This document shows, piece by piece, positions 25,835-28,202 of a stretch of DNA of 64,000 nt. The notes below the pieces were generated by a model. The model worked only from the letters and a program-made list of their open reading frames with translations, was not told where the DNA came from and searched no databases. The translations under genes were made by a program, and so were the position numbers. The DNA lies in contig NZ_BBMP01000005.1 in the NCBI RefSeq assembly GCF_000755245.1, positions 124,001-188,000 on the forward strand, in the 5' to 3' direction. The stretch's first letter is position 1. The number at the start of each line of letters is the position of its first letter. Origin of the DNA: Halococcus sediminicola (lineage in GTDB: Archaea; Halobacteriota; Halobacteria; Halobacteriales; Halococcaceae).

Positions 25835-26006
25835 ACACGTTCTTCCCAACCAGCCGTATATGAATCTTCAGCCGTGAGAGCCGCACCCTTTGGGGAACTA
25901 TTCTACTGCTTCGAGATACACCACTCGGGTCCACATCCCAAACTGGAGACGCCCACTCGCACCATCAGTGTGAGACGTGACCGACCAGCGGCTCGTCCGC
26001 GTCGGT

Positions 26007-26045
26007 CTTTAAGTGCTTCTAGCGACAAGGTATAGATACGAGAGA
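26007..26045 (+). promoter_or_regulatory. 39-bp repeat, candidate promoter of the epsilon gene
   Basis: CTTTAAGTGCTTCTAGCGAC followed by AAGGTATAGATACGAGAGA lies about 80 bases before the epsilon-like gene. The same sequence, with one change, is at 28001-28039 just beyond the IS630 element. TTTAAG and TATAGATA are possible TATA-like elements. The second copy has no gene behind it. Confidence 0.5.
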
Positions 26046-26123: not shown

Positions 26124-26837
26124 ATGCCCAACGGTGGAACCGCTCCACGCCCGACTTCCGTCCCACCCGATGAGGAAGAAGTCGGTCAATTGAGTCGCCA
26201 GCCCGGTGATAGTACTGTCTCACGAGCCGATCTCCAGCGCGACGAAACTACCCGCCGCTGGGGACTGGTCACGCCGAGCGCGACTCGCATTGGCCGTGCG
26301 GACTCGCCCGATGGCGACCTCAGTGACAACATCCGTCGGCTTCACGAAGAGCGCCACCCCGCCATGGAAGGCTACAGCAAGCGCGCTCACCGCCTCGAAA
26401 AGTTGCGTCTCACCCACGCGCTCTGTGGCAGCCTCGGCCTGACCCCCTGGCAACGCGATCGCGCCATCGGTACGATGGTCAAACTCGATCTCACCGCCTT
26501 CGGTAGTCAGCGCGCTATCCCCAAGGTCGCGCTTGTCGTGATTCGCCACGTCGTCGACCGCGAGCGCGAACACCATCTCGGACTTCACGATGAGGAGTGG
26601 ATCGCCGACCAGCCGCCCGAACGGCTTGCCGATCTCTACGAGCAGTTCCACTCGATCACTGACGATGAGCAGTTCTCCGCCCTCTGCGAACAGCACGACC
26701 TCGACGTGACGAACCTCAATCGCCTCCGCCGAACCCTGACTGACCAACTCGATGAACAGGACCTCCACGATGCAGTCTACGGCCGCAATCCCTATCGTGA
26801 TCCGAGTCTGCCGGAACTGACTGTCGGTTCGGCCTGA
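26124..26837 (+). CDS. rpoeps: RNA polymerase epsilon-like subunit
   Basis: A 237-residue protein. The central region LRLTHALCGSLGLTPWQRDR, then LDLTAFGSQRAIPKVALVVI and RHVVDREREHHLGLHDEEWI, and the ending VYGRNPYRDPSLPEL match the haloarchaeal 'DNA-directed RNA polymerase subunit epsilon' proteins. Its job in transcription is not established; it is a Halobacteria-specific associate that may fold like a cyclin-box helical protein. The N-terminal 60 residues are charged and probably disordered. It is followed directly (one base) by the IS630 element. A chromosomal copy probably exists, making this an accessory paralogue. Confidence 0.82.
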   Translation: MPNGGTAPRPTSVPPDEEEVGQLSRQPGDSTVSRADLQRDETTRRWGLVTPSATRIGRADSPDGDLSDNIRRLHEERHPAMEGYSKRAHRLEKLRLTHALCGSLGLTPWQRDRAIGTMVKLDLTAFGSQRAIPKVALVVIRHVVDREREHHLGLHDEEWIADQPPERLADLYEQFHSITDDEQFSALCEQHDLDVTNLNRLRRTLTDQLDEQDLHDAVYGRNPYRDPSLPELTVGSA

Positions 26838-26839
26838 TA

Positions 26840-27968
26840 GGGTCGGCTAAAGATCTTTACCGACCTAGACAGTAGCCCGATGTAATGGGTCGGCTCGACG
26901 ATATCACTCTGGAAGAACTCCACGAGGTGCGTGAGCAAACGGAAGGTGAGAAGCCGCGAGAACGCGTTCTCGCGGCGATCGGCCGCAAGCAGGGCGCTCA
27001 GATCGACACCCTTGCTGAGCGTCACGGCGTTGTTGAGAAAACCATCCGCAACTGGCTGGATCGGTTTGTCGAGCAACCGATCGAGCAGGCTCCCTACGAC
27101 GCTCCTCGCCCCGGCGGCCCCTCAAAACTCACTACAGAACAGCGTGAGCACCTCGAAGAGGTGCTCCACGATTCACCTACTGAATTGGGCTACGACCAAC
27201 AGGCCTGGTCGCCGAAGATTCTGCTCCACTACGTTGCCAGAAAGTACGACGTTGAGTACAGCAAGCGCCATGCACGCTATCTGTTGACTGAGGCCGGGCT
27301 GTCCTGGCGGACAGCGCGGCCTCGCAATCACGAAGCCGATCCTGAAGACGAAGCGAAGTTCCAAGCGACGGTCGAAAAAAACGCCCCGAACTAGCCGAGA
27401 AGACGGTCGTTGTCGTCGACCAGTTTACCAAGCGCGTCGGCACCGTCCAGCGGCATGGATGGTACCCGATTGGGTCCGATCCAACGGTCGAGACATCGAA
27501 CTCCTGGGACAAGGTGACAGTGCTTGGCGCTGTCACCGGCGACGGTGACAGCTTCTACTGCTGGACGGAAGAAAACCTCACACGATACCACGGAATTCGC
27601 TTGTTAGAAGCACTCCAAAAGGAGTTTGGCGAAGAGTTGGTGGTGTTTCTTGATCGTGCAGGTTACTTCTATGCGAGGGATCTCTGGGAGTTCGTGAGTG
27701 GTGAGCGCGAGACCGAAACTGTCGGGGACAGTTCGGTCTCGTGCGTGCGCGGAGAGAAGCTGGCGGTCTGGTACTTCCCATCGAAACTCCCCGAACTCAA
27801 CCCAGTGGAAGGATGCTGGAATCAGCTCTACGAGTGGTTCAAGCACCGGCTGATTCCGGATCTATCGACACTGAAAGACTCCATTCCGAGTGGAATCGAT
27901 GCAATCGATGAACCAAACATCTGGAACTATCTTTGCTCAACCGATGGGTAAAGATTCGTCACCGACCC
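26840..27968 (+). mobile_element. IS630-family element with TA target duplication
   Basis: Ends are GGGTCGGCTAAAGATCTTTAC on the left (written here in part as GGGTCGG) and its imperfect inverse CCGACCC on the right, each flanked by TA, the IS630 target duplication. Length about 1.13 kb. The insertion lies immediately after the stop of the epsilon-like gene. Both transposase frames are complete, so the element may still be active. Confidence 0.85.
26885..27951 (+). CDS. IS630 transposase in two frames joined by -1 slippage
   Basis: ORF A (26885-27394) codes the N-terminal HTH part (GVVEKTIRNWLDRFVEQPIE) and a linker. ORF B continues in the -1 frame as KRPELAEKTVVVVDQFTKRV and ends at 27951 with the DDE catalytic domain: Asp in VVVVDQF, Asp in VVFLDRAGYFYA, Glu in ELNPVEGCWNQL. 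At the junction (27376-27382) the DNA is A AAA AAC in the zero frame, the canonical -1 slippery heptamer, seven bases before ORF A runs into CCGAAC and its stop. The fusion protein would be about 355 residues, normal for the family. Programmed frameshifting is known for several insertion sequences. Confidence 0.8.
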
Positions 27969-28000
27969 TATGATTGATGAATCGAGAGCCTTCGTCTGTT

Positions 28001-28039
28001 CTTTAAGTGCTTCTGGCGACAAGGTATAGATACGAGAGA
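28001..28039 (+). repeat. Second copy of the 39-bp promoter-like repeat
   Basis: Matches 26007-26045 at 38 of 39 positions, same orientation. The two copies bracket the epsilon-like gene and the IS630 element. Confidence 0.7.
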
Positions 28040-28085
28040 CCCTACTTGCGTGCAAGCGCGTCTTTCTAGTCGGTCAGCTTTCGAG

Positions 28086-28202
28086 TCACGACGAATCGAT
28101 GCGTTTCATGAGTCGCCGACACTCCGGACAGGACCGTGACGCTCCTTCATCGCCGCTGAGTTGATGATCGCAGTTGACGCACTCGTAGATGAACGACTCC
28201 AT
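28086..28202 (-). CDS. 38-residue zinc-ribbon micro-protein
   Basis: From ATG 28202: MESFIYECVNCDHQLSGDEG, then ASRSCPECRRLMKRIDSS and TGA. Two CxxC knuckles 18 residues apart form a minimal zinc ribbon. Very short but with coding-like composition. It lies downstream of the ParA partner gene on the same strand, separated by about 90 bases. Role unknown. Confidence 0.5.
   Translation of the reverse strand: MESFIYECVNCDHQLSGDEGASRSCPECRRLMKRIDSS

Follow-up and report, generated by a model that had tools for sequence, protein, structure and literature searches.

Conservation of a seven-A junction points to programmed recoding of an IS630 transposase in haloarchaea

Introduction

In an insertion sequence of Halococcus sediminicola, the DNA-binding and catalytic halves of an IS630 transposase are encoded in different reading frames that meet at a run of seven A's. 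Is this break a defect, or is the reading frame changed here as part of normal expression, and if so, is it changed by the ribosome or by RNA polymerase? The original prediction, made from the DNA letters, was programmed -1 frameshifting at a canonical slippery heptamer, a process that it called poorly documented in haloarchaea. For experiments this description holds: a 2021 review lists a single proven case of -1 frameshifting in archaea, from Saccharolobus (PMC8211752). It fits annotation less well, since two haloarchaeal IS630 elements, ISNpe3 and ISNma7, already stand as single coding sequences (CDS).

Frameshifting of IS630 elements has been described in bacteria, where the GeneTack clusters HTH_Tnp_IS630 count 495 cases at -1 and 185 at +1 (PMC3711429). 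For the halovirus HCTV-2 the reported shift site is A_AAA_AAC, and -1 sites are also reported in HCTV-1, HCTV-5, and HVTV-1 (PMC5009743). Frameshifts in haloviruses and haloarchaeal plasmids are treated in PMC5974055 and PMC7230728. The passages on archaeal IS630 in PMC2246112 and PMC8563766 mention the family but not recoding. Our literature search, which reached few subscription papers, returned no paper on haloarchaeal IS630 recoding.

Results

We analyzed a 64,000-nucleotide stretch of H. sediminicola DNA, here called the window. It carries a 1129-bp IS630-family insertion sequence on the forward strand (positions 26840 to 27968) with two open reading frames (ORFs). The element has the short inverted ends of the family, beginning GGGTCGG, and is flanked by the predicted TA duplication (26838-26839 on the left and 27969-27970 on the right). 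It begins directly past the stop codon of an upstream ORF (26124-26837), the DNA of which was matched in 10 of 10 searched genomes of the genus. The element boundaries are supported by two relatives with an 87% identical flank, since both have the same gene end with no insertion at this place; a single ancestral TA is not visible in them. A repeat of ~40 nt lies on either side of the upstream ORF (26006-26045 and 27999-28039), with the element located between that ORF and the right repeat copy. The same repeat matches around the homologous gene in other searched Halococcus genomes, often on both sides. A second copy of the element, L002, is found in the same genome (C12:4145-5217). It shares ~90% DNA identity and the same ends with the window copy and is structurally complete, but it has lost one A of the run and, with six A's, would need a +1 shift. 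The original prediction also described the element as apparently active. This is borne out for its structure, with the reservation that L002 is one A short.

The first ORF (26885 to 27394) runs in frame 0 from an ATG at 26885 to a TAG at 27392-27394 and encodes 169 amino acids. It matches the Pfam helix-turn-helix (HTH) families HTH_33, HTH_32, and HTH_29 and positions 4-135 of the IS630 profile NF033545. The second half is read in the -1 frame, which is free of stops from 27346 to a TAA at 27949-27951; after the slip it comprises 189 codons and the stop (27382 to 27951) and matches DDE_3 over profile positions 2-146 of 146. NF033545 scores 99.8 and 85 bits for the two halves, against a cutoff of 100 that was set for the whole. 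The catalytic residues claimed by the original prediction could be located at D 27418, D 27652, and E 27808, which we take to be the catalytic residues of IS630. A search for solved relatives of the DDE half returned none up to an E value of 0.1. The zero frame reads GTC GAA AAA AAC at 27371-27382. Hence, as predicted, an X_XXY_YYZ heptamer, A_AAA_AAC (27376 to 27382), lies in the zero frame within the overlap of the two coding frames, at the 3' end of the seven-A run (27375-27381) and with its C at 27382. The zero-frame stop follows three codons past this site and arises from the -1-frame codons CTA GCC. The run is the only one of exactly seven A's on the forward strand of the window, where runs of seven T's are absent. 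The string AAAAAAC by itself is not above chance (3 occurrences on both strands of the window versus 3.5 expected); its weight comes from its position between two domains and its conservation in relatives.

We compared the junctions of related elements. A motif search over all collected related loci gave 44 unique matches, from which we left out one chance match (on the minus strand of L063), four sister-group rows ending in G, and L051, a degraded -1 copy with six A's followed by G. A -1 shift is required in 27 of the remaining 38 distinct junctions, and in 26 of these 27 the heptamer A_AAA_AAC is in phase (the run has seven A's in 24 of them, eight in one, and 10 in one), which answers the question of whether relatives keep the heptamer. 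The exception, L069, reads A_AAA_ACG (A6CGGG), with its frames open. All 26 heptamer-bearing junctions have a zero-frame stop exactly three codons past the AAC. Among the other 11 junctions, eight require a +1 shift (seven with six A's and one with nine), and three are in a single frame (A8, A8, and A11). Single-frame relatives had been named as the sign of a simple homopolymer error; those that exist are isolated tips carrying a relic of the stop. Such a relic is retained in all 11 departures and in L069. The departures correspond to 11 separate changes on the tree, all of them single tips, so that no lineage with more than one sampled copy descends from any of them. Since the departures keep the stop relic, the sampled group most likely started from the split arrangement, from which the continuous and +1 copies were derived. 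Both halves are intact in 18 of the 27 -1 copies versus 3 of the 11 others (Fisher P = 0.037); phylogenetically independent pairs showed the same trend more weakly (median P = 0.0625). Two copies that require +1, L002 and L088, are structurally intact, which speaks against a -1 shift by the ribosome.

We then examined codon choice at the junction in 17 intact rows, with L069 left out. The stop varies among TAG, TGA, and TAA yet is kept at one offset. It is built from a Leu codon and the following codon of the -1 frame (CTA GCC, CTG AGC, CTG ACC, CTA ACC, and a few others), an arrangement that requires CTA or CTG (once TTG) plus the correct following base. The conserved Leu column at the stop has CTA or CTG in 17 of 17 rows and is the sole column of this kind among 32 conserved Leu columns, although Leu codon use in the intact genes is 40% CTC and 5% CTA. 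Where the next residue is Ala, CTA is the only CTN codon that retains the stop, and it is used in all six such rows. In all 17 rows both slip-site codons have A as their third base, whereas only 1 of 42 other conserved Glu, Lys, or Gln columns is all-A. The -1 site and its direction are thus conserved beyond what the protein requires. The two halves have dN/dS values of 0.031/0.43 and 0.012/0.29 between the window copy and L011, another -1 copy, and of 0.035/0.41 and 0.023/0.49 between the window copy and L002. On these substitution rates, both halves are under purifying selection. We concluded that the related copies show, at the level of their sequences, selection and not error.

The pattern extends to other haloarchaeal IS630 elements. 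An order-wide HTH_33 search, taking the best places per genome, gave 30 loci, at least three of them shared with the earlier set. Exactly seven A's followed by a DDE half in the -1 frame were found in 23 of the 30. In 20 of the 23 the run is in a different phase, behind a pyrimidine-ending codon and as a rule as AAA AAA AGC; the other three have GAA AAA AAG TAG at the junction. Two further haloarchaeal IS630 groups also combine a run of exactly seven A's with a -1 arrangement, one of them in the other phase. We also collected 40 further regions, mostly copies from multicopy genomes. Seven A's, the -1 shift, and both open frames were retained in 34 of them; of the remaining six, five are disrupted and one has A6CGGG. 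Several copies are identical within each set over ~950 nt (four in genome G242, three plus one in G207, and six plus three in G064); these identities indicate that split elements have transposed recently. A RefSeq entry on a Halobacterium noricense plasmid (L184, 402-1401) has one CDS across a six-A junction, with a span of 1000 nt (remainder 1); this six-A state contrasts with the window's group, in which six-A copies are isolated departures.

These comparisons bear on whether the split is real and used. A homopolymer sequencing error in the assembly could produce such a break, and the two copies in this genome do differ by one A, but the seven-A run with its -1 frame recurs in complete plasmid records and many independent assemblies, which already contradicts an error and leaves it barely credible. 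Random indel decay of a dead copy is a highly improbable source of the break. Some copies, such as L026, L091, and L092, are dead and have indels in the run, but diverged copies from many genera share the identical break, phase, and stop, both halves have low dN/dS, and there are multicopy sets of identical elements; the junction comparison had already contradicted decay. Alternatively, the two ORFs could yield two separate proteins, with the DDE half starting on its own or by reinitiation near the stop, and RefSeq gives related copies two CDS, for example with a 4-nt overlap. In the window copy, however, the earliest ATG, GTG, or TTG of the DDE frame is the GTG at 27514, past the first catalytic Asp. 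In 22 of 26 relatives these codons are likewise absent ahead of the first Asp. A start in the overlap would have to be CTG, or CTA in the window copy. Separate translation of the DDE half is thus unlikely, and strongly so.

The alternative that deserves most weight places the change in transcription: RNA polymerase would add one A by programmed slippage, so that part of the mRNA has eight A's and one continuous frame. The relatives L039 and L063, with eight A's, are indeed continuous. Exactly seven A's are common to three haloarchaeal IS630 groups in two phases, and in the sister group's phase, C AAA AAA AGC, a tandem shift re-pairs poorly. Run length 7 as a feature common to the groups is also predicted by RNA polymerase slippage, and it counts against a ribosomal reading. 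Slippage is the preferred explanation for bacterial IS630 clusters, which show both directions (PMC3711429), and has been proposed for Deinococcus radiodurans IS elements with eight or nine A's (PMC1088944). Deinococcus relatives within IS630 (L177-L182) have seven to nine A's and annotated spans that fit both shift directions. However, the run here has seven A's in 24 of 26 junctions, short of the ~8-9 or more A's or T's associated with slippage (usually nine, eight in some bacteria, according to PMC1088944), a bacterial threshold that may differ in haloarchaea. Slippage should also let copies with six or nine A's found lineages, giving lineages in both directions; in the window's group all such copies are tips, and the +1 copies (8 of 38) occur solely as single tips. 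We regard slippage as possible but doubtful.

Programmed recoding at the IS630 junction, by whichever route, is near certain on the comparative evidence. Ribosomal -1 frameshifting at A_AAA_AAC, giving two products from one mRNA, is the mechanism that we consider probable, because the canonical heptamer is in phase, one direction dominates, the run is below the usual slippage length, and the same heptamer is reported for HCTV-2. The near-constant direction points to the ribosome if judged as in Antonov et al. 2013 (PMC3711429). Thus, the recoding part of the original prediction is strongly supported, with the run, phase, -1 direction, and stop kept in relatives, and ribosomal frameshifting is the likelier route, with slippage on the seven A's as the less likely one. 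In ribosomal frameshifting, most ribosomes would terminate at the TAG at 27392 and release the 169-amino-acid DNA-binding protein. A minority would slip one base back on A_AAA_AAC, with tRNA-Lys and tRNA-Asn re-pairing on AAA AAA, and would resume reading at CGC CCC GAA to make the full HTH-DDE transposase. Such a shift would keep the transposase level low. This analysis itself shows the frames, the site and its retention by relatives, and purifying selection on both halves. That the ribosome shifts at this site, at what rate, and with what role for the short product is what we infer.

A stimulatory structure 5-9 nt downstream is usual, although not obligatory, at such sites; none was found at this distance. 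Windows starting 2-20 nt past the site showed no unusual RNA structure in the 26 junctions (mean z scores of +0.6 to -1.35). We rejected a downstream stem-loop or pseudoknot, as the folding windows past the site gave no consistent structure. Rfam gave zero matches up to an E value of 0.5 in 26700-28100.

Folding of the coding region did reveal hairpins elsewhere. Five places in the gene are more stable than in synonymous shuffles of the 17 intact elements, four with mean z scores of about -3 to -4.3 and H1 with -1.8. In the window copy, on the forward strand, H1 (26953 to 26976) is a perfect 10-bp stem; H2 (27055 to 27086) is imperfect but reaches 13 bp of perfect pairing in relatives; H3 (27290 to 27323) has 15 positions with one mismatch and ends 52 nt upstream of the heptamer; H4 (27513 to 27537) has an alternative pairing at 27528-27551; and H5 (27705 to 27744) has 18 pairs and a bulged A. 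Conserved residues have a codon diversity of 0.137 within the hairpins versus 0.420 elsewhere (54 versus 212 columns in 16 intact elements, L077 excluded), a comparison whose P value is descriptive only because the hairpin places were picked from the same sequences. From codon use and folding together, the five hairpins are under synonymous constraint. Their stems are mostly conserved letter for letter, with two-sided changes at three pairs. G-U cells outnumber A-C cells in the stems by 32 to 12, and two pairs contribute most of the G-U cells. L077, an intact divergent element, does not have these hairpins. Sister groups have perfect stems of other letters at corresponding places, for example ~80 nt upstream of the run.

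We counted perfect stems of at least 10 bp with loops of 3-10 nt. The window's group has 2.47 per element (16 of 17 elements with one), the sister group 2.89 (27 of 28), the third group 2.5 (2 of 2), and Deinococcus IS630 2.0 (6 of 6). The IS630 controls gave 0.025-0.05 per element in synonymous shuffles and a single stem in 36,090 nt of other long ORFs of the window. In Halococcus genomes, 29 IS4/IS5-type ORFs contain 91 stems, with one or more in 27 of them (0.048 per ORF in shuffles), and four IS1595 ORFs contain 11 stems, with one or more in three of them. Enrichment over synonymous shuffles is ~50- to 100-fold across haloarchaeal IS630, IS4/IS5-type, and IS1595 elements and Deinococcus IS630. 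In E. coli K-12, five transposase CDS (IS1, IS30, and IS5) and 10 other CDS have zero perfect stems, and E. coli IS5, used as a search bridge to high-GC bacteria, gave no lead. We rejected frameshift stimulation as the main role of the hairpins: the heptamer lies 52 nt from the end of the closest upstream hairpin and 131 nt from the start of the closest strong one downstream, and other transposase families have hairpins too. The hairpins could conceivably throttle translation or transcription, cause a pause between folding domains, or control mRNA decay.

Discussion

The elements closest in design to the window copy are ISNpe3 of Natrinema pellirubrum and ISNma7 of Natrialba magadii, in which HTH and DDE halves are likewise joined by a -1 shift at seven A's. 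They belong to a different IS630 group (~35% identity in the DDE half), and their run reads C AAA AAA AGC, not A_AAA_AAC. In RefSeq plasmids each is a single CDS of 1001 nt (remainder 2) across both halves. To judge from this span, with the joins hidden in the table, each appears to be annotated as one -1-shifted CDS. For copies of the window's own group the annotation gives two genes; one of these copies has nine A's.

The bacterial HTH_Tnp_IS630 clusters also have an IS630 transposase split at an A run, but there both directions are common and slippage is preferred, whereas one direction dominates in the haloarchaeal group (PMC3711429). HCTV-2 has the same heptamer in a haloarchaeal host, in viral tail assembly genes and not in a transposase (PMC5009743). 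The fucA1 gene of Saccharolobus solfataricus resembles the window copy in its archaeal -1 shift at an A-rich heptamer; it encodes an enzyme on the chromosome, its product is proven, and a stem-loop has been proposed for it (PMC8211752), whereas the case for the IS630 element is made from sequence and a downstream stem-loop was not found.

The split looks like a deliberate brake on jumping and not like a broken gene, insofar as this can be read from the conserved junctions. The hairpins raise a separate question, since perfect stems occur in several transposase families and not in other nearby genes. Known hairpins of bacterial insertion sequences include ones at the 5' end. We tentatively suggest, while regarding this as somewhat less than an even bet, that the coding-region hairpins of haloarchaeal IS630, IS4/IS5-type, and IS1595 elements and Deinococcus IS630, which in IS630 are at fixed places under synonymous selection, may act with A7 recoding in IS630 as a layered RNA-level brake on the transposase, unlike the bacterial 5'-end hairpins.

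The IS630 family supplies many natural variants of one site, with 6 to 11 A's and three motif types. Some sister copies have runs that differ in length by a single A, so that simple tests can tell a ribosomal from a transcriptional mechanism. Since the window's group is split into two genes in public annotation, such transposases are likely undercounted. If hairpins and A7 recoding do form such a brake, haloarchaeal IS630 would constitute a widespread and testable archaeal -1 recoding system.
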